From an uncultured Armatimonadota bacterium (GTDB lineage: Bacteria > Armatimonadota > Fimbriimonadia > Fimbriimonadales > Fimbriimonadaceae): a stretch of 64,000 nucleotides of DNA. A model generated the notes under the pieces. The model worked only from the letters and a program-made list of their open reading frames with translations, was not told the origin of the DNA and did not search any database. Below are positions 2,181 through 48,363 of the stretch, piece by piece; the stretch's first letter is position 1; every line of letters begins with the position of its first letter. The stretch covers positions 1 through 64,000 of the forward strand of contig CAIUHP010000046.1 of assembly GCA_903899015.1 (NCBI GenBank). Reading direction: 5' to 3'. The position numbers were made by a program, and so were the translations under genes.

Positions 2181-2767
2181 TTACGGTTCTCGACTACGGC
2201 ATGGGAAACCTCCGTTCAGTAGAAAAAGCCATTGAATATATAGGCTTTGATTGCCGGGTCTCCAATAATATTCACGGAGCCTCGAAGCTGATTATTCCGG
2301 GTGTCGGCGCGTTTGGGGCTGCGATGGAGCGCCTCAAGCCGATCGAAGTTGAGATAAAAGCTTTCGCGGCTTCCGGTGGCCCATTATTGGGCATCTGTCT
2401 TGGCCAACAGTTATTGTTTGACGTGAGCGAAGAGCATGGCGAAACCGAAGGGCTCGGACTAATTGCTGGACGAGTGCGTTATTTCCCCCCTGACATGGGC
2501 CTGAAAGTTCCTCATATTGGCTGGAGTGCGATCGACTACAAAATTGAAGGCGGGCTCGCCAAGGACGGGCACGACGGGGAACAAGTCTTTTTCGTCCACT
2601 CTCTCTATACCGATTGCTTTGAGACTCAAGACGTCGCTGCGACTGCGGATTATGGTTTGACATTCGCGGCTGCGGTTCAAAAAGAGAATGTCTGGGGAAC
2701 TCAATTCCATCCCGAAAAGAGTAGCTCGGTTGGTCTGCGTATCCTTAAAAATTTCCTCGAATGCTAA
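2177..2767 (+). CDS. hisH: Imidazole glycerol phosphate synthase, glutaminase subunit (CTG start)
   Basis: HisH supplies ammonia from glutamine to HisF. The frame reads (L)ITVLDYGMGNLRSVEKA, so the family N-terminus begins upstream of the first ATG (2201), which falls inside the conserved DYGMGN motif and would remove the first strand. Between the preceding in-frame stop (2138) and that ATG there is no ATG, GTG or TTG; the codon at the expected start is CTG (2177-2179), overlapping the hisB stop as CTGA, with AAGGGG 8 nt upstream. I therefore place the start at CTG, giving 196 residues. The nucleophile is Cys74 in GICLGQQ; His and Glu are in QFHPEKS. hisA overlaps its end by 7 nt. hisF is not in the window. 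Confidence 0.9.
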   Translation: MITVLDYGMGNLRSVEKAIEYIGFDCRVSNNIHGASKLIIPGVGAFGAAMERLKPIEVEIKAFAASGGPLLGICLGQQLLFDVSEEHGETEGLGLIAGRVRYFPPDMGLKVPHIGWSAIDYKIEGGLAKDGHDGEQVFFVHSLYTDCFETQDVAATADYGLTFAAAVQKENVWGTQFHPEKSSSVGLRILKNFLEC

Positions 2768-3489
2768 TACTTCCAGCCATTGATCTTCGTGCCGGACAAT
2801 GCGTCCGCTTAACTCAAGGCGATTACGCCCAAGAAAAGGTGTACGACTCAGATCCCGTAAAGGTCGCCTTGGATTTCCAAGATGAAGGCGCGCAGTGGAT
2901 CCATATCGTGGATCTTGATGGAGCCAAGAGCGGAGAACCTCAGAACTGGGATGCCCTTCAATCTATTTTGAGGTCCGTCGATTGTTCCGTCGAAGTCGGC
3001 GGAGGAGTCAGAAGTCCGGAAACGGCAAGACGCCTGATTGACATGGGTGCATCACGCGTTGTTGTGGGAACGAAACTCATTCAAGATCCCGAGTTAGCGG
3101 CGCAAATGTTTGCCGAGTTTGGAGAAAAGATCGTTGCCGGCATTGACGCCAGGAACGGTCAAGTCGCGGTAGCGGGATGGATTGAGCAATCGTCGACGAC
3201 AGCAATCGAACTTGCAAAGCGGATGGAATCTCAGGGTGCGAAGAGGATTATCTTGACCGATATCTCGAAGGACGGGATGCTTTCTGGGCCCAATTTAGAA
3301 TTGCTGGACGCTGTTAGCCAAGCGGTTGCGATACCGATTATTCACAGTGGCGGAATAGGCGTACTAGAAGACTTGAAATTGCTGTACGATAAAGCGAAAG
3401 TTCGCCCTGAAGGGGTGATTGTCGGACGCGCTATTTATGAGGGACGATTCACGGTGAAAGAAGCTTGTGAACTATCCGCATCCTTTTAG
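2761..3489 (+). CDS. hisA: ProFAR isomerase HisA
   Basis: 242 residues, the usual length for HisA. The enzyme performs the Amadori rearrangement of ProFAR to PRFAR, the substrate of HisF/HisH. The (beta-alpha)8 signature is clear: LILPAIDLRAGQCVRLTQGD at the start with the catalytic base Asp, the first phosphate loop SVEVGGGVRS, GIDARNGQVAVAGW, ILTDISKDGMLSGPN with the second catalytic Asp, and IIHSGGIG plus GVIVGRAIYEGRF for the second phosphate site. The ATG lies inside the end of hisH (7-nt overlap), consistent with translational coupling. Confidence 0.97.
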   Translation: MLILPAIDLRAGQCVRLTQGDYAQEKVYDSDPVKVALDFQDEGAQWIHIVDLDGAKSGEPQNWDALQSILRSVDCSVEVGGGVRSPETARRLIDMGASRVVVGTKLIQDPELAAQMFAEFGEKIVAGIDARNGQVAVAGWIEQSSTTAIELAKRMESQGAKRIILTDISKDGMLSGPNLELLDAVSQAVAIPIIHSGGIGVLEDLKLLYDKAKVRPEGVIVGRAIYEGRFTVKEACELSASF

Positions 3490-3523
3490 TTGGGTGTCCG
3501 TAGTATCTGGTTGATATCGATTA

Positions 3524-3838
3524 ATGATGAGTGGATTCATGCTTTTTCACCTACCTTTGTTAGCTTATTTGGATCCGGGCCAGATTGCGGTGATGATTCC
3601 GATTTTCGCGCTTTCAATTCCCATAGTCGCGATGTTGATAAAGCATCAACAGCGAATGGCTGAGATTATTCACGGCACCGCTCGACAACAAGGTGATGCG
3701 GAAATCGCACAGTTGCGAAGTGAAGTTTACGAACTCAAGCAACTCGTTCATCAACAGATGATCTCGGTTGATTCTTTGGTGTCGATGAAAGTGAAAGACA
3801 CTGACACGCCATTACAGCAGCGGCTGGAGCAACGGTAG
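3524..3838 (+). CDS. Small membrane protein with coiled coil (PspB-like layout)
   Basis: 104 residues. One hydrophobic segment near residues 18-40 (IAVMIPIFALSIPIVAMLI) is followed by a charged, heptad-like region (GDAEIAQLRSEVYELKQLVH) and a short C-terminal tail ending RLEQR. The plan of one N-terminal helix then a cytoplasmic coiled coil resembles phage-shock protein B, but I do not recognise a named family and infer no function. It starts 34 nt after hisA and ends with TAG immediately before the ATG of a related gene. Residues from AEIAQL to LVSM align without gaps to that neighbour, so the pair arose by tandem duplication. Confidence 0.75.
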   Translation: MMSGFMLFHLPLLAYLDPGQIAVMIPIFALSIPIVAMLIKHQQRMAEIIHGTARQQGDAEIAQLRSEVYELKQLVHQQMISVDSLVSMKVKDTDTPLQQRLEQR

Positions 3839-4120
3839 ATGCACGAATTCTTCATTTTTATGGTGCTTCTCCTTGCTGTGGTCATTGCCATCGTAATCAT
3901 TGCAACACACCATGTAAGAAAGATGGCGGAACTTGAAAACAGAAAGAATGACAACGGATCCACTAGCCGAATCAATGCGCTAGAAGCCGAAGTGGCAAGC
4001 CTTAGGCAAATCGTTGCGGAGTAGGCCATTGCGTTGGATGACGTTTCGTCCATGCACCGCCGCCTTCTGGATCGAGCCATTACGGATTCTGGTATTCGAG
4101 AACGACTCGAAACGAAGTAG
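3839..4120 (+). pseudogene. Tandem paralogue of the small membrane protein, interrupted by TAG
   Basis: ATG follows the previous stop with no gap and in the same frame. The first 61 codons give a hydrophobic helix (FFIFMVLLLAVVIAIVIIAT) and coiled coil ending SLRQIVAE, then TAG (4022-4024). The same frame continues with AIALDDVSSM and ends RLETK TAG at 4118-4120. This continuation matches the tail of the upstream paralogue (QMISVDSLVSM, ending RLEQR), and the internal TAG sits exactly opposite a CAG (Gln) codon there, so one C-to-T change explains it. TAG is the normal stop of other genes here (for example hisA and rmlD), so readthrough is unlikely. The truncated 61-residue form keeps the helix and most of the coil and may still be made. 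Confidence 0.7.
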
Positions 4121-22174: not shown

Positions 22175-23038
22175 ATGGAACCAACTTTTAAAGTCATCGC
22201 AGATCTCTTCCAAGTCCCTCAAGCCGAAGATTTGGAGGTTCTTGAATCGGGTCGCAAGAGGCACGGAGATAATTCCGAAGAAAGCCGTGAACTTGGCAAA
22301 CAAAGTCTAAATCAAGGCGATTATGCGACGGCGCTTAGGCATTTTCGAGAAGCAGTTGAAAATCGTGATCCAAACGATATTGAGTCGCTTATTGATCTTG
22401 GAGGAGCTTACGAGTATGGGGACGAATATCCTCAAGCTCTAAGACAATATGAAAAAGCTTTGCGTGCGAACGAGGAAGCAACGGAGCCAATTCTAGGCGT
22501 TGCCGACCTTTATAAGCGCTACGGACGGTTTAATGACGCGATCCTTAAACTCGAGGAAGCCGTCGAGCGACAACCAGGTAATGCCTTTAATCGCATCAAG
22601 CTGGCTGAAACACTTCGTGACGCCCGAGACCGCAAGCGAGCACTGGTAGCTGCTCAAGGGGCGATTCTTGCAAAACCGGACGAGGCTTATTATCACTACT
22701 GGACAGGCGATTTACTTATTGAAATGGAGAGATACAATGAAGCGCTCGAATACTTGCGGGCTGCTCTCGAACTCTCTCCCGGTGATGATTTCCTCTATCT
22801 GCGGACGACAGTTGCGTTCTGGTGTGCCGGTCGAAAAGTTGAAGCCATCAAGTCATTAAGACTCGCAAGCGACCTTGATCCTGAGAAACACTTTTATCAC
22901 GGACTGCTCGGGATTCTGTACGAGGAAACAGATCAGTCAGAAGAAGCGAAACTTGAAAGCGAACGTGCCGCGAAGATGGATCGATACGACCACGATCTTC
23001 TCTCGCGCCTCTTGATTGAAATGAAAATCGAACTCTAG
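22175..23038 (+). CDS. Tetratricopeptide repeat protein
   Basis: 287 residues without signal peptide or membrane helix. From about residue 45 there are at least six consecutive 34-residue TPR units, for example LGKQSLNQGDYATALRHFRE, DLGGAYEYGDEYPQALRQYE, ADLYKRYGRFNDAILKLEEA, TGDLLIEMERYNEALEYLRA. Such repeats form a superhelical scaffold for protein binding in the cytosol. No partner domain is present, so the specific role is unknown. It ends 6 nt before a convergent gene, leaving no room for a separate terminator. Confidence 0.88.
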   Translation: MEPTFKVIADLFQVPQAEDLEVLESGRKRHGDNSEESRELGKQSLNQGDYATALRHFREAVENRDPNDIESLIDLGGAYEYGDEYPQALRQYEKALRANEEATEPILGVADLYKRYGRFNDAILKLEEAVERQPGNAFNRIKLAETLRDARDRKRALVAAQGAILAKPDEAYYHYWTGDLLIEMERYNEALEYLRAALELSPGDDFLYLRTTVAFWCAGRKVEAIKSLRLASDLDPEKHFYHGLLGILYEETDQSEEAKLESERAAKMDRYDHDLLSRLLIEMKIEL

Positions 23039-23044
23039 GTTCGA

Positions 23045-23809
23045 CTACTTGGCCCGGAAATGAGCGGCAAGAATGGTATGCCACTCAAATAATCGGGTTT
23101 GGAGTTCGATTTTCTTCACGTCTTTGTAATTGCCGTCAATCGTGAATTTTGTCCCGTGCATATTGTCGAGACTTGCCAACGAAATTGGGTGAGCCGTCGA
23201 TTTTCCCTTCTTGTCTTGGATGGTTAGTGACACAGCTTCTTTCAAGACAGATTCGGGAAGTCGTACTGAAATCGTTGTGGTTGGTTTGCCTGGCTGACTC
23301 GTGGGATCTTCGACGACGATTGGAGCGAAGTCTGCGCCCATCTTAGACGTGACTTTGAGCCCCTTTTTATTACTGGAGAAAGAGACCGAACCCTTCGGAG
23401 TCCAGGGCCCCGTTGCGACTCCAACGGCCACATCCTGTTGTGAAGGTTGGCCACGCTTTGTTGCAAGACCGCCAATCCATCGCTTTCCATCCCTCGAGAG
23501 CCATAAAAGACCGGCATCAACTTGGTTCGTTGAAGGTAATTTGAAACGGACACAAGGCTCGTCTGCAGGTTGTCCTGTCGATTCCGATTGGGCTATCCAT
23601 GCGAGCAACACTGGGCTTTCGATTGAGTCGAAGAATTTCTCAGGAAGGTTTCTAGCAATGATTCCGGCATCAATAAGGCTGGAATCTGCGTGCCATGCCA
23701 GATTCGCAGATGGTTGGTAAAACGCAAGTGAGACTCTGGTGCCGTCCTTAAGGGTCCATATCCCTTGGTTCGAAGCAAAAGAAAGGTAAGCAGCAACGAT
23801 CGGAATCAT
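23045..23809 (-). CDS. Exported protein, family with the F.WHTI C-terminus (intact copy)
   Basis: 254 residues. A short hydrophobic N-terminus (MIPIVAAYLSFAS) acts as a probable signal peptide. The rest is beta-rich with no catalytic motif; the end reads GNYKDVKKIELQTRLFEWHT followed by ILAAHFRAK. The same ending occurs in the next gene downstream on the map (23904), showing tandem duplication. I do not recognise the family; similar W/H-containing C-terminal strands occur in secreted Armatimonadota and Planctomycetota proteins, from memory. A TATAAT lies 8 nt before the ATG, consistent with a leaderless mRNA. Confidence 0.7.
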   Translation of the reverse strand: MIPIVAAYLSFASNQGIWTLKDGTRVSLAFYQPSANLAWHADSSLIDAGIIARNLPEKFFDSIESPVLLAWIAQSESTGQPADEPCVRFKLPSTNQVDAGLLWLSRDGKRWIGGLATKRGQPSQQDVAVGVATGPWTPKGSVSFSSNKKGLKVTSKMGADFAPIVVEDPTSQPGKPTTTISVRLPESVLKEAVSLTIQDKKGKSTAHPISLASLDNMHGTKFTIDGNYKDVKKIELQTRLFEWHTILAAHFRAK

Positions 23810-23835
23810 TAAGTCCGATTATAAGCCAACATTCT

Positions 23836-23868
23836 GCCTTGAATCGTTCGATGAATTCGATTCAAGGC
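23836..23868. repeat. Inverted repeat upstream of the intact paralogue
   Basis: GCCTTGAATCG and CGATTCAAGGC form a perfect 11-bp palindrome with an 11-nt spacer. It ends 13 nt upstream of the TATAAT box of the 23045-23809 gene, about where a -35 element or regulator site would be. No T run follows on either strand, so an operator is as likely as a terminator of the neighbouring gene. Confidence 0.6.
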
Positions 23869-23903: not shown

Positions 23904-24680
23904 TTAGTGAGAGAGATGAACGCCAGGGATGGTATGCCACTTAAAAGATCGGGCTTGAAGTTTTAGCTGACTGACCGAATGATAATCGCCCTGAAAGAAG
24001 AATTTTGTGACGCCGGTGGTGTTTTTCGGTCGGTAATATCCGGCACCTTTCATTTCTTTTCCTTTGGCATCAAAAACGAGATATCTCACGGCAAGATCCT
24101 TAATTGAGTTTTTAGCCTGAACCGTTAATTCGGTAAACAGCTGGGTACTGCTAGCATCTTTTGATCGCGGTGCGGGCCCTATTTGAGCTTCAAAAGTCAC
24201 TCCGACGGTGGAATTTGGCTTGGAGTGATCTGATCCAATTCGATAATGCTTCGATCCCGCATCCCTCCAGGCTCCACTAGCGATGCCCATTTTTACGGAG
24301 TGAACTCCTGAGATATTGTCCAGCGGAATTGCCGATATCCAATTGCGGTCGGACCTGCCAAGCGCCACAAGTGGAAGATCCTGAACAGGAGTCCCGTCGA
24401 ATTGGAGCCTAAGATTCGGTAATTGAACTCCATGTGATGTTGCCGTACCTTGAACAACGAAGAGAGGTTGATCCATGCGTTCAATAACCATCCTCAATCC
24501 CAGTCGTTTTTGAAGTAGCTCGTCGAAAATGGCATGGCTGTCGGTCTTTGAACCGTCAATTGTCCAAGCCGCTCGGGTCTTAGGTCTCACCATCGCGATC
24601 GAACATCGAGTGTTGTCTTTGAGTTACCACTCTCCATGCGTAGCGAGTATTAGGGCGCTGGTAAGACTGGCAAGGATCAT
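23904..24680 (-). pseudogene. Exported paralogue broken by TAA after the signal peptide
   Basis: Starting at ATG 24680 the frame encodes MILASLTSALILATHGEW, a convincing signal peptide, then TAA (24624-24626), then LKDNTRCSIAMVRPKTRAAW and on to the stop at 23904. The intact neighbour reads GIWTLKDGTRVSLAFYQPSA at the same place, so the TAA replaces its Thr codon and the frame is otherwise continuous. Total length would be 258 codons against 254. The ending QGDYHSVSQLKLQARSFKWH followed by TIPGVHLSH matches the paralogue. Translation from ATG 24593 could give a 229-residue protein without an export signal. I therefore call it a nonsense-disrupted gene, unless the base is a sequencing error. 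Confidence 0.75.
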
Positions 24681-24707
24681 GGATTTCACTTAGGGATTGC
24701 AGCCGAC

Positions 24708-26174
24708 TCAGAGTCCTAATTGAGCAAGCTCTAGAGCGCGAAGAGCGGCCTTAGCCTTGTTGCATGACTCTTCGTATTCCTTTTCCGGAACTGAATCGTA
24801 AACAACTCCTCCACCTGCCTGTACATGTGCGACCCCATCCTTAATGTAGATCGTTCTGATTGCAATGCAACTGTCGAGATCGCCGGAATGGCTGAAGAAC
24901 CCAACGCTGCCTGCATAAGAGCCGCGACGAGTTGGCTCAAGTTCATCGATGATCTGCATTGCTCGGACCTTAGGGGCTCCCGACACAGTTCCTGCAGGGT
25001 GGCAGGCTCTAAATAAGTCGAACGCATCTTTGTCTGCTGCCAATTCTCCGGTAACGTCACTGACGATATGCATGACGTGGCTATATCGCTCAATCACCAT
25101 GAGGTCGTTCACGACAACCGAACCGTAGTCGCAAACTCGGCCCAGGTCGTTTCGACCGAGGTCGACGAGCATGATGTGCTCTGCCCGCTCCTTTTCGTCG
25201 GCGATTAGCTCGTTTCCTAGTTCAATATCTTCAGCGTCAGTTTTGCCTCTCCATCTCGTTCCCGCGATCGGTCGAACCCGGGATTTGCGACCGTGAACGC
25301 TGACAAGCAGTTCAGGTGAGGCTCCAACGAGATCAAAATCGCCAAATCGGAGAAGGAACATGTAAGGCGACGGATTGATGGATCGGAGCGCGCGATAGAC
25401 GGTTAAAGGATGCGCATCTGAACGAGTCGAGAACCTTTGAGATGGAACCATTTGAATGCCATCTCCTGCGGTTATGTACTCGATCATTTTTGAAACCATC
25501 TGCTCGAAATCCTTTTTCGTGACATTGGATTCAACCGGATGAACGGGGAATTTGCCGGTTGGCAAAGGAGGTAGAGGATTTGCGAGTCGGTCGAGAACCC
25601 AGTTGATTTCGGTAACCGCTTCGTCATAGCTATTCGAGGAACCGTCCGTCATGACGGTAACCCGAATGATGTTCTTCGCGTGGTCGAAAACCACAACCGT
25701 GTCCGCGAGCATCATAGCCATGTCGTCCACGTTCAAGTCGTCAACGGTGGTGTCAGGTAGGTTTTCAAAATAGCGGACAATGTCATAGCTCAGAAGTCCA
25801 ACCGCTCCACCTGCAAAACTAGGAAGTCCCGACACGTGAACAGGAACGTCTGAGAGCATCGCCTCTTTCAATAAATCAAGAGGGTCTTGTCCAGGAGCAA
25901 GTAGTTCCGTTTCGACTCCTTGGGTTCGGATTCTTCGAACTTCACCGTTTTTTGAACGCAAAACCAACTTCGGGCGAATGCCGAGGATCGAGTAGCGGCC
26001 AAGTTGCTCCCCACCGGTGACACTTTCAAGGAGAAAGCTATAAGTTTGATCGTGAGCCAGTTTCCAGTACGCACTCAAAGGGGTTTCTATGTCGGCAAGG
26101 ACATCCCGGTAAACGGCCATCGGACGGACACCGTTCGTTTGAGCTAAAAACTGGTCTTTGCTTGGTACGAGCAT
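24708..26174 (-). CDS. trpE: Anthranilate synthase component I
   Basis: 488 residues, normal for TrpE. Converts chorismate and ammonia to anthranilate at the head of tryptophan synthesis. The chorismate-binding domain is clear: [30 protein letters not shown], the [20 protein letters not shown] segment, [40 protein letters not shown], and [20 protein letters not shown]. The N-terminal region includes [19 protein letters not shown], where the LLES motif binds tryptophan for feedback inhibition. trpG and the other trp genes are not adjacent. The last residues lie 27 nt before the disrupted exported gene, on the same strand. Confidence 0.95.
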
Positions 26175-27499: not shown

Positions 27500-28585
27500 T
27501 TAGGCCAGCTTCACCCGCTTTCCAATACGAGCAGACTCGTAAATGGCTTGAATGATCTTAATGTCGCGTAGACCCTCTTCGCCGGGTGTTGCTGGCTTTG
27601 AGTGCGAACGAATGCAATGCGAAAAGTGATCCATCTGGGCTGCCCATTGGTTATTGGGCTCAACAGACAGATCGTGACCGTCCAGTGTCAGGTGATCTCC
27701 CTCGTAGGCAGTAGCGGGATTCGCAGTCAGTTTGCCCTTTGAGCCGATAACCTCAAACTGGTTCTTGCCCGGACTCCACGAATAACCACCAGCACCTTGT
27801 GCGACCAAGCCGCTAGGGAAGGTTAGAGTGAATTCCACGGTGTCTTCGGTGTCCACAAACCGATCATCGTTCGGTGGGTTCGTGATTTTGGCGGAAACTT
27901 CGATTGGCTCCTCTCCCGATAGGTATCGAAGCGCATTGAGCGAATAGATCCCGATGTCCATCATCGAACCTCCCCCCGCGAGTGCCTTTTGAGTTCGCCA
28001 CTGCCCGTGTCCGATATTGAATCCGTGATCGGATCGCATGGATTGGATTTTTCCGAGTTCTCCGGATCGGACTGCTTTGATAGCACGCAGATTGTGGTTC
28101 TCATAGTGGCAGCGATATCCGATCTGAAGAAGTTTCTTCGCCTTCTTACACGCATCGATCATGGCTTGGCACTCGGCAACAGTTGGAGCCATCGGTTTCT
28201 CGCTACAGACATGTTTGCCTAGTTGCGCGGCACGAATGGTGAAGCCAGGATGGGTCGATGGCGTCGTAATGACATAAACAACCTCGATATCTGGATTGTT
28301 CTTGATCGCATCCATCGAGTCATAGGTGTATCGGTGAGTCTCTGGAATGCCGTATTGATCTCCAAATCGAACAAGTTTTTCGCTGTGACCACTGATGAGA
28401 GCAACGAGCTTTGACCCCTTGCAAAACTTCATATTGGGAATGATTTGATTGGTGGCATAGCCCCCGAGACCGAGAATCGCCCAGCCGACAGGTTTTTCTT
28501 CGAGTTCCTTCAATAACCCGATAGGACTGATTGCAGTAGCCAAAGCTCCTGCTAAAACTTCGCGTCGAGAAGGGTCGTAAGACAT
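27500..28585 (-). CDS. Gfo/Idh/MocA-family oxidoreductase with Tat-like signal
   Basis: 361 residues. The N-terminus SRREVLAGALATAISPIG has a twin-arginine pattern, though it lacks the full consensus and a strong cleavage site. A Rossmann domain follows (GWAILGLGGYATNQIIPNM), then the EKPMAPTVAECQ motif near residue 130 whose Lys is catalytic in the family, and the C-terminal beta-sheet domain (GGGSMMDIGIYSLNALRYLS). The closest functional relatives are glucose-fructose oxidoreductase-like and sugar dehydrogenases using tightly bound NADP. The substrate is unknown. TAGAAT lies 8 nt upstream of ATG. Confidence 0.88.
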   Translation of the reverse strand: MSYDPSRREVLAGALATAISPIGLLKELEEKPVGWAILGLGGYATNQIIPNMKFCKGSKLVALISGHSEKLVRFGDQYGIPETHRYTYDSMDAIKNNPDIEVVYVITTPSTHPGFTIRAAQLGKHVCSEKPMAPTVAECQAMIDACKKAKKLLQIGYRCHYENHNLRAIKAVRSGELGKIQSMRSDHGFNIGHGQWRTQKALAGGGSMMDIGIYSLNALRYLSGEEPIEVSAKITNPPNDDRFVDTEDTVEFTLTFPSGLVAQGAGGYSWSPGKNQFEVIGSKGKLTANPATAYEGDHLTLDGHDLSVEPNNQWAAQMDHFSHCIRSHSKPATPGEEGLRDIKIIQAIYESARIGKRVKLA

Positions 28586-45405: not shown

Positions 45406-46419
45406 ATGGGTTTGCGTCGAATTGCTTTGATTCCTGGCGATGGAATTGGTCCCGAGATCATGTCGGCCACGATTGCGATATTGGAGGCGGCAGGTTTTGC
45501 AGCTGATTGGGTCCACTTAGAGGCCGGTCAAGTCTCTCTTGATAAGGGTAAGGGGGCGATGCCTCAGGAGACCTTGGATGCCGTTCGCGAAATTGGAATC
45601 GCTCTCAAGGGTCCGACGACGACTCCGATAGGTAAGGGGCATACCAGTGCCAACGTAGCGTTAAGAAAGGCTCTTGACCTATTCGCCAATGTTCGCCCAA
45701 CCCGGTCTTTGCCCGGTCTGAAAGGCTATTTCATGGACGCAAAGATCGACCTGATTATCGTTCGAGAAAATACGGAAGATCTCTATGCGGGAATTGAATT
45801 TCAGCCTCACCCGGACATTGCTCAAGCGGTTAAAGTCATCACTCGCCCGGGAAGCCATCGATTGAATAAATATGCTTTCGACATGGTTCGAAAGCAAGGT
45901 CGCAAGAAGATCACTGCCGTCCATAAGGCCAACATTATGAAGTTGACGGACGGAATGTTTCTTGAGGAATTCTACAAGGTTGCTGAGGAATATCCCGATA
46001 TCGAAGCGAGCGACATTATCGTCGATAACTGCTGTATGCAACTCGTCACTCACCCAGAAAAATTCGACGTCCTTGTGACCGAGAATCTCTACGGTGACAT
46101 CGTGAGTGATCTCTGCGCGGGACTTGTGGGCGGATTAGGCTTCGCAGCTGGAGCCAATATCGGCGTCGATTGTGCAGTCTTTGAAGCGGTGCACGGTTCG
46201 GCACCTGACATCGCTGGAAAGGGCATCGCGAACCCAACCGCGCTTCTCTTCAGTGCACTCATGATGCTAAGGCATATCGGCGAAGGCGCGATTGCCGACA
46301 AGATTGGAAAGTGCGTGTTGACAATGTTCTCAGAGGGCCAAGTTCTGATGCGCGACATGGGTGGCACGGCTTCCACCATCGATTTCCAGAATGAGGTCAT
46401 CAGAAGACTCGGTGCGTAG
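45406..46419 (+). CDS. NAD-dependent isocitrate dehydrogenase
   Basis: 337 residues of the beta-decarboxylating dehydrogenase family. Seen: ALIPGDGIGPEIMSATIAIL, substrate motif GHTSANVALRKALDLFANVR, IIVRENTEDLYAGIEFQ, the catalytic Lys in TAVHKANIMKLTDGMF, Asp metal ligands in ENLYGDIVSDLCAGLVGGLG and the cofactor segment HGSAPDIAGKGIANPTALLF. Ser and Asn before LRK favour isocitrate over isopropylmalate, and Asp in SAPDIAG favours NAD. Homoisocitrate or isopropylmalate use cannot be excluded from sequence alone. The rmlD gene starts 33 nt downstream. Confidence 0.88.
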   Translation: MGLRRIALIPGDGIGPEIMSATIAILEAAGFAADWVHLEAGQVSLDKGKGAMPQETLDAVREIGIALKGPTTTPIGKGHTSANVALRKALDLFANVRPTRSLPGLKGYFMDAKIDLIIVRENTEDLYAGIEFQPHPDIAQAVKVITRPGSHRLNKYAFDMVRKQGRKKITAVHKANIMKLTDGMFLEEFYKVAEEYPDIEASDIIVDNCCMQLVTHPEKFDVLVTENLYGDIVSDLCAGLVGGLGFAAGANIGVDCAVFEAVHGSAPDIAGKGIANPTALLFSALMMLRHIGEGAIADKIGKCVLTMFSEGQVLMRDMGGTASTIDFQNEVIRRLGA

Positions 46420-46452: not shown

Positions 46453-47322
46453 ATGAAGTTTCTTGTTATCGGAGGATCGGGCATGCTCGGCACGGACCTC
46501 GTTGCCGAGCTTACTAAGCGAGGACATTCGGTAGAGAGCCCCTCGTCAAAAGACCTCAATATCACCGATCCTTGTTCGGTTGCTCAGATTGCCGTTGAAC
46601 CGGGGAAATATGATTGGGCGATCAATTGTGCTGCTTATACCGCAGTGGATAAAGCAGAAACCGAAGTTCAAGCTGCCACCGAGTTGAACGCACTTGGACC
46701 AGCCTATCTGGGCAATGCGTGCAACGTTGCGGGGATTAAGGTGCTTCATGTCAGTACCGATTTTGTCTTCGACGGTACGGCATCCACGCCCTATTCCGAG
46801 TCGGCCGAAACGCACCCTCTTGGTGTCTACGGTTCGACGAAAAGAGAAGGGGAACTCGGTCTGTTGGCGGCAAACCCGAATGTTCTAATCGTGAGAACTT
46901 CATGGCTCTATGGCATTCACGGAAATTCGTTTCCTCGAACGATGATTCGTGCTTGGGAGGCTGGGAAAGAACTGAAGGTCGTGGCGGACCAAGTTGGTTG
47001 TCCGACATCCACAGTGGATCTAGCTCGAGTTTTGGTCGATCTGTGCGAGAAGAATGGCTATCCGGGAATCTATCACGCGTCAGGGCCGAACGCTACGACG
47101 TGGCACGCGTTTGCGATTGAAGCGATTCAAGCCTGGAAGGAATTTACGAGATCCGATCGAGCGGTTCAAATCGCACCGATTCCGACAGAGGCTTATCCCA
47201 CTCCCGCTAAGCGACCGAAGTACAGCGTGATGTCAATGGATAATCTAGCGTCCCTCGGTATTGCTCCGATGCGACCGATGAAAGAATCCATTCAAGAGTT
47301 CGTCGGCCGACTCAAGTTGTAG
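46453..47322 (+). CDS. rmlD: dTDP-4-dehydrorhamnose reductase
   Basis: 289 residues. Short-chain dehydrogenase fold with MKFLVIGGSGMLGTDLVAEL for NADP(H), INCAAYTAVDKAETEVQAAT, LHVSTDFVFDGTASTPYSES containing the catalytic Thr region, the YGSTKREGELGLLAA active-site Tyr/Lys pair, RTSWLYGIHGNSFPRTM and DQVGCPTSTVDLARVLVDL, typical of RmlD/RfbD. It makes dTDP-L-rhamnose for cell-surface polysaccharide. rmlA, B and C are not nearby. It is close to, and probably transcribed with, the isocitrate dehydrogenase gene. Confidence 0.93.
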   Translation: MKFLVIGGSGMLGTDLVAELTKRGHSVESPSSKDLNITDPCSVAQIAVEPGKYDWAINCAAYTAVDKAETEVQAATELNALGPAYLGNACNVAGIKVLHVSTDFVFDGTASTPYSESAETHPLGVYGSTKREGELGLLAANPNVLIVRTSWLYGIHGNSFPRTMIRAWEAGKELKVVADQVGCPTSTVDLARVLVDLCEKNGYPGIYHASGPNATTWHAFAIEAIQAWKEFTRSDRAVQIAPIPTEAYPTPAKRPKYSVMSMDNLASLGIAPMRPMKESIQEFVGRLKL

Positions 47323-47353
47323 CAAGCTTTGGCCACCGATCGGAAATCTGGTC

Positions 47354-47359
47354 TATACT
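47354..47359 (+). promoter_or_regulatory. -10 box of the TPP riboswitch transcript
   Basis: TATACT lies about 15 nt before the aptamer, in the 48-nt gap after rmlD. TTGGCC at 47329-47334 is a weak -35 candidate with a 19-bp spacer. It suggests the riboswitch RNA has its own promoter. Confidence 0.45.
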
Positions 47360-47370
47360 TGAAGAGCAAG

Positions 47371-47476
47371 AGACACCCGCAGGGGGAGCCAATTGGCTGA
47401 GAGTTTCATGTGCGCCACCGCACGATGAATGACCCCTCGAACCTGATCCGGTTAGTACCGGTGTAGGGATTGTGGA
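47371..47476 (+). ncRNA. TPP (THI-box) riboswitch
   Basis: All conserved blocks of the thiamin pyrophosphate aptamer are present in order on the plus strand: GGGGGAGCC pairing with GGCTGAGA (47395-47402; P2 and the pyrimidine-sensing CTGAGA), a variable P3 arm (TTCATGTGC with GCACGATGAA), GACCCC, GAACCTGATC and the P4/P5 arm CCGG-TTAGTA-CCGG, closing with GTGTAGGGA. AGGGAT at 47465-47470 can also pair with ATCCCT at 47484-47489, a candidate expression-platform switch. The only downstream gene in this direction is the prepilin-like gene at 47551. No thiamine gene is seen in the window. Confidence 0.95.
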
Positions 47477-47498
47477 AGAGGTCATCCCTGTTTTGGGG

Positions 47499-47526
47499 GC
47501 CACCCTTCGCAATCGCGAATGGTGGC
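47499..47526 (+). promoter_or_regulatory. Hairpin in the riboswitch expression platform
   Basis: GCCACC-C-TTCGC and GCGAA-T-GGTGGC pair around AATC with one mismatch. TCTTAGCATTT follows, a weak U tract, and the ribosome-binding site AAGGA (47538-47542) comes 12 nt later. It may act as a regulated terminator or as part of a translation switch. Confidence 0.5.
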
Positions 47527-47550
47527 TCTTAGCATTTAAGGATGGACTAA

Positions 47551-48363
47551 ATGTTAAACACCCAAATTCATGGGTCGGTATTCCCAAATCGGCGAGGATT
47601 TACGCTGATCGAATTACTCGTGGTCATCGCCATTATCGCGATCCTCGCGGCGATCCTTTTCCCGGTCTTTGCTCAGGCGAAAGAAGCGGCAAAGAGTACG
47701 GCAGAGCTCAGTAACGCCAAGGAAATTGGACTCGCCTACAAGATGTACATCAACGACAGTGATGACACGATGCCTATTTTCTATGCCTATAACAGCATTC
47801 CACCAAACGGAACGGCCGGGCATAAGGGAACTGAAGTATTGCTGCTCGCTTATACCGCGAATAAAGAAATCTTTAAGAGCCCTCTCGATTCGGGCGGCCC
47901 GTATCTTGCCGTTGATCCCGGGTTGGTTGCTTCGGGCAAGTCTTATGATTCGTACTACGCAGCCTACGGCACCTCTTTCCGATTCGACCATTGTATGTTC
48001 ACAACGGCCGCCAACGAGTCCAGTCAGAACAATATCCTGTACACAACCGATTCCGTTGTAAACGAGGGAAGTGTTGAGTTTCCGTCGGATACACGAGTCA
48101 TTCGTCTTGAGATGTTTCCATTCTTTTCGAGAAAGAATGATCCTGGTTGTGCCACTTACGGTTATGATTGCGATCCGGTCAGTTATTACAAGCAGTGGGG
48201 TTCGACCGGAGGGGCCATGATCTTTAGCGATAGCCACGCAAAGAAGATCACGAATGGAGGTCAATTTGACAAGACGATGGTAGATCCATTTGGCCATCGT
48301 TCAGGCGATTCTTCGACCGATCCAAACGCGTGGTCGGGCACCTGGTATAGCCTCTGCGACTAA
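47551..48363 (+). CDS. Prepilin-type (pseudopilin-like) exported protein
   Basis: 270 residues. The class III leader ends at RRG16 followed by [20 protein letters not shown]; Glu21 is the +5 Glu needed for methylation and assembly, and prepilin peptidase should cut between Gly16 and Phe17. The helix runs into [20 protein letters not shown], then a globular domain with [17 protein letters not shown] near the end, like the H-X9-DG segment of DUF1559-type proteins, which are multiplied in Armatimonadota and Planctomycetota. AAGGA lies 8 nt before ATG. The unusual point is its position directly behind a TPP riboswitch. Function unknown. Confidence 0.9.

Follow-up and report, generated by a model that had tools for sequence, protein, structure and literature searches.

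The paralogue pA, at positions 23904-24680 (-) of the window (the whole 64,000-nucleotide stretch of DNA analysed here), is interrupted by an in-frame TAA at 24624-24626 (-) with homology in the same reading frame on both sides, the structure expected of a nonsense pseudogene. Probably, one real nonsense mutation has struck the older member of a tandem pair of paralogues for putatively exported proteins and made of it a young pseudogene or a null allele that still segregates. Translation of 24710-23901 (-) gives a hydrophobic leader of 18 residues with an ATG start (24627-24680 (-); MILASLTSALILATHGEW), then the stop, and then LKDNTRCSIAM... as far as the terminal stop, the 777-nt frame having 18 codons of leader before the TAA and 239 codons between it and the terminator. 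A GTG at 24689, nine bases farther out, is an alternative start that would give a 21-residue leader. The TAA is the only stop in the frame of 258 codons plus terminator, and no other lesion is present. Residues 12-251 of the intact neighbour pB (254 aa, 23045-23809 (-)) match pA across the stop (E 5.0e-23, with "1 TAA" inside the match), as does a profile of five family members (E 1.7e-37), and same-frame homology of this strength is not a product of chance; a 229-codon frame would be open by chance at this base composition with a probability of about 2e-5. The preliminary description had placed the TAA between the leader and LKDNTRCS, in frame with the intact neighbour, and translation and homology bear it out on both points. 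It had also equated the restored length with that of the neighbour; the two are close, but the 258 codons of pA are not the 254 of pB and count the stop itself.

The segment upstream of the stop resembles an export leader found throughout the family. By hydropathy and alignment, all ten other aligned members have a hydrophobic N-terminus, with best 11-residue hydropathy values of 1.83-3.27 compared with 2.32 in pA, and from its own N-terminal leader pA is predicted, on hydropathy, to be a protein of the Sec-exported type. The first ATG 3' of the TAA, at 24593, opens a 229-aa ORF (23904-24593 (-)) that is without the leader and the region aligned to pB residues 1-29. None of the ten members has a methionine in the column of that ATG, the starts of G004, G013_2, G008 and G030 having been picked by us inside longer open frames. 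According to the structural model of pB, the stop falls at the first predicted strand (17-19), and a product begun at 24593 would lose that strand and most of the second (25-32). The earlier view that a nonsense codon parts the leader from the mature region of an exported paralogue is upheld, while a natural start at 24593, against which that description had proposed an alignment with homologues, was rejected on the leaders (10 of 10) and the missing methionine (0 of 10).

The duplication that produced pA and pB is old. Identity between the two is 27-29%, depending on the aligner, with 69 of 248 aligned residues in common; 29 of those 69 residues have the same codon, where 28.1 are expected from codon usage, and this chance level of sharing (saturation) indicates an old event. 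Synonymous sites are saturated, NG86 being undefined, and no ortholog of pA was found. In a tree of 11 rows, with one of eight inner branches fully supported, pA lies outside the group formed by pB, the pB of the relative G013 and three further members from the genus, G013_2, G005 and G004 (supports 93/93 and 92/89). A recent tandem duplication was rejected on the amino acid identity, the codon sharing and the tree. The stop, in contrast, looks young, because there is no other lesion, the tip branch of pA is of ordinary length (1.40, against 1.43 in the intact G013_2 and 0.51-2.37 in the others), and conserved residues have been kept. Among columns conserved at 80%, pA retains 19 of 25 (0.76; 0.68-0.86 in the ten other members), and at 60% it retains 32 of 48 (0.48-0.78 in the ten). 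If the gene has been neutral since the mutation, the lack of any further lesion limits the age of the stop to some 0.04-0.10 substitutions per site, at the 5% level and depending on the indel rate assumed. Judged by its sequence, pA looks like a paralogue of long standing whose stop is young; the recent decay of a duplicate raised in the preliminary description is retained as to the stop and not as to the duplication, and a broken gene with an intact paralogue next to it does not have to stem from a recent duplication. The C-terminal 50 nt of pA and pB are 80% identical; gene conversion is not claimed there, as the same codon at 7 of 10 positions in the last 26 columns, against 4.7 expected, is too little.

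The two genes are separated by 94 nt and lie on the same strand downstream of trpE (anthranilate synthase component I, 24708-26174 (-)), with a gap of 27 nt between trpE and the pA ATG; leuD diverges from trpE. At its opposite end the syntenic block is bounded by a gene for a TPR protein (22175-23038 (+)) that converges on pB. Contig C47 of G013 (Fimbriimonas sp. MAG_BO249; identical to JARLGV010000121.1) is syntenic, with identities of 78% for the TPR protein, 43% for pB, 85% for trpE and 75% for leuD, and in it trpE is followed, 72 nt on, by the pB ortholog without a pA in between. Since pA is missing from this locus, no ortholog displays the ancestral codon at the stop, and the gene appears dispensable in the genus; either pA arose in its own lineage or it was lost in G013. 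Compared with its G013 counterpart (L037:632-1396), pB has a dN of 0.565, against 0.117 for trpE, 0.162 for the TPR gene, 0.198 for leuD and 0.206 for the gene at 27500, and it has thus changed several-fold faster than its neighbours.

Other features of the locus concern its promoters and spacer. The pB ATG is preceded, at a distance of 8 nt, by a TATAAT (23818-23823 (-)); no box of the TANNNT type was seen at the start of pA. Upstream of 45 listed window genes, 9 of 29 TANNNT occurrences within 40 nt end 6-9 nt before the start (a raw count), a spacing that suggests leaderless promoters. Between pA and pB lies an 11-bp perfect inverted repeat with an 11-nt loop (23836-23868), for which a repeat-element reading was rejected: a slightly shorter pattern occurs once in the whole genome, here.

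Were the mutation real, ribosomes starting at the pA leader would make only a stub the size of a signal peptide and then stop. The mature domain would go unmade, or a leaderless product might be made at a low level from the ATG at 24593, 31 nt downstream, and would stay in the cytoplasm. Loss of this copy would probably be tolerated because pB remains and could compensate; the family evolves fast and is absent from many relatives.

Several other explanations could account for the stop. First, the TAA could have entered the assembly as a base error in the consensus or from a minority strain, with the gene intact in most cells, which we think rather unlikely. The draft genome consists of 119 contigs, the four named relatives are metagenome bins, the remainder of pA resembles a working gene in its branch length, conserved residues and fold model, and two such stops occur in 64 kb. 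The second, which the preliminary description had likewise reported beside an intact paralogue, is a TAG at 4022-4024 (+) in a small predicted membrane ORF (3839-4120), where G013 has CAG; the adjoining paralogue (3524-3838 (+)) is indeed intact, with 34% identity to its G013 counterpart (E 3.8e-5). Against error stands a comparison of the window with G013 C47, in which no frameshift was found in a credible gene, a result that bears on indel-type errors and little on single-base errors. Matches were obtained for 44 of the 92 ORFs from G013 and for 47 of the 57 from the window, in an incomplete set, chosen greedily, from which both known stop cases had been displaced by longer overlapping ORFs. 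By our own sorting, the five rows with stops from G013 to the window comprise three upstream extensions, one case close to where hisA naturally ends and one ORF antisense to a real gene, and the three from the window to G013 comprise two at the very start and one antisense ORF; in the latter direction a small ORF at 47312-47587 gave frameshift-like pieces. A codon-usage scan for interrupted genes was dropped, because it passed over both known stops and flagged only 46417-46419, where one ORF borders on another.

Second, there is a small chance that pA is still expressed, either by low-level readthrough, which would yield some exported protein, or by reinitiation at 24593, which would yield a cytoplasmic form. 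The downstream frame is intact and keeps its conserved residues, the stop is early, 31 nt before the in-frame ATG, and the ORF from 24593 gives a confident structural model by itself; the conserved residues and the good fold prediction fit a gene still in use through readthrough and a consensus error equally well. Parts of the survey by Belinky et al. (2021; PMC7918605) describe in-frame stops in bacterial genes as widespread, mostly short-lived and, in the authors' view, often read through, and on that view low-level expression of pA stays viable. However, none of 44 tRNA matches in the genome search (the first look at which scored 150 of 280 candidates) has a suppressor anticodon (TTA, CTA or TCA), and the 46 listed window ORFs end in TAA (25), TAG (15) or TGA (6); as TAA and TAG together terminate 40 of these, neither is reassigned. 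Stop reassignment or a suppressor tRNA was rejected accordingly for the tRNAs found. As for reinitiation, no Shine-Dalgarno-like sequence was seen by eye before 24593, and the product would be the truncated one described above, beginning where no homologue has a methionine.

Third, the stops could be a reversible, selected off-switch, pA toggling by recurrent point mutation between exported and unexported or silent forms while pB stays on, with the TAG at 4022-4024, likewise in the second of a small paralogue pair, as another case; we consider this very unlikely. Finally, it is scarcely credible that the ORF from 24593, which the ORF caller gives as exactly 23904-24593, is simply the gene and has nothing to do with the leader, because an in-frame alignment with pB and the homologues runs across the stop through both the leader and the LKDNTR segment, and all ten homologues have leaders and none a methionine in that column.

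The protein family to which pA and pB belong appears, from sequences and models, to consist of fast-evolving exported proteins with a predicted beta-sandwich, found in Fimbriimonas-type Armatimonadota and patchily distributed in the Fimbriimonadaceae. At E <=0.001, matches came from 5 of 20 genomes in the genus with a single-protein query and from 12 of 113 in the order with a profile query, the genome of the window being counted in both; some of the order-level matches are confined to the C-terminal portion of larger open frames. At L056, L062 and L063, much larger open frames of 625-1042 codons end in a stretch that matches the C-terminal part of the family, and of the two such frames tested, one has CarboxypepD_reg-type domains and the other has no Pfam match. 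A contig search with pB alone gave nothing, whereas the profile later recovered the G013 locus in the same kind of search, so the negatives of such single-query searches carry little weight. Pfam and NCBIfam gave only below-cut-off matches for pA and pB, and a family of this kind, without a match in either collection, may deserve a name. L034 (G032:C36) holds a second head-to-tail pair of divergent members, both intact (2483-3232 and 3266-3997). At L060 (G005:C80), positions 1495-1665 carry a family gene as far as its codon 55, and unrelated sequence follows; contig C115 of that genome begins with a full copy, to which 168 of the 171 bases are identical, and the segment is either a strain variant or a copy that has been truncated.

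AlphaFold2 models, built with a seven-sequence alignment, are beta-strand-rich both for pB (pLDDT 84.6, pTM 0.80) and for the pA ORF from 24593, which is confidently modelled though shortened (pLDDT 81.1, pTM 0.73). They resemble tandem Ig-like or fibronectin-III-like beta-sandwich proteins in being beta-rich, and Ig and FnIII entries dominate the Foldseek and VIA-align lists. The likeness is one of fold only and is weak, with no Foldseek match at E <=0.001; the best VIA-align match was 4kh9, a DUF4785 protein (Z 8.0 over 100 residues), the next had Z 6.8, and a sequence search of the PDB gave no match below E 0.4. A structural or binding role outside the cytoplasm may be supposed for the family from these models.

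A young pseudogene or segregating null allele at pA, as we prefer to read it, is best seen against its relatives and against interrupted genes elsewhere. With pB, the pB ortholog of G013 and other Fimbriimonadaceae members, pA has in common the leader, the AW and VxxGxxxGxW motifs and a C-terminal end like VELQxRxxxW. Unlike them, it has the stop, and its branch lies outside the group containing pB. In annotation pA should be given as an interrupted exported gene and not as a 229-aa cytoplasmic protein. Events of this type are ordinary in bacterial genomes, and nothing here goes against current knowledge. The survey of Belinky et al. (2021; PMC7918605), in the parts that bear on this question, used stops common to orthologues in at least two species, whereas no ortholog of pA was found here. 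It places most bacterial in-frame stops on the time scale of population polymorphism, and pA, with one stop in a conserved frame, no other lesion and an expected short life, is like the young nonsense pseudogenes and polymorphisms described there.
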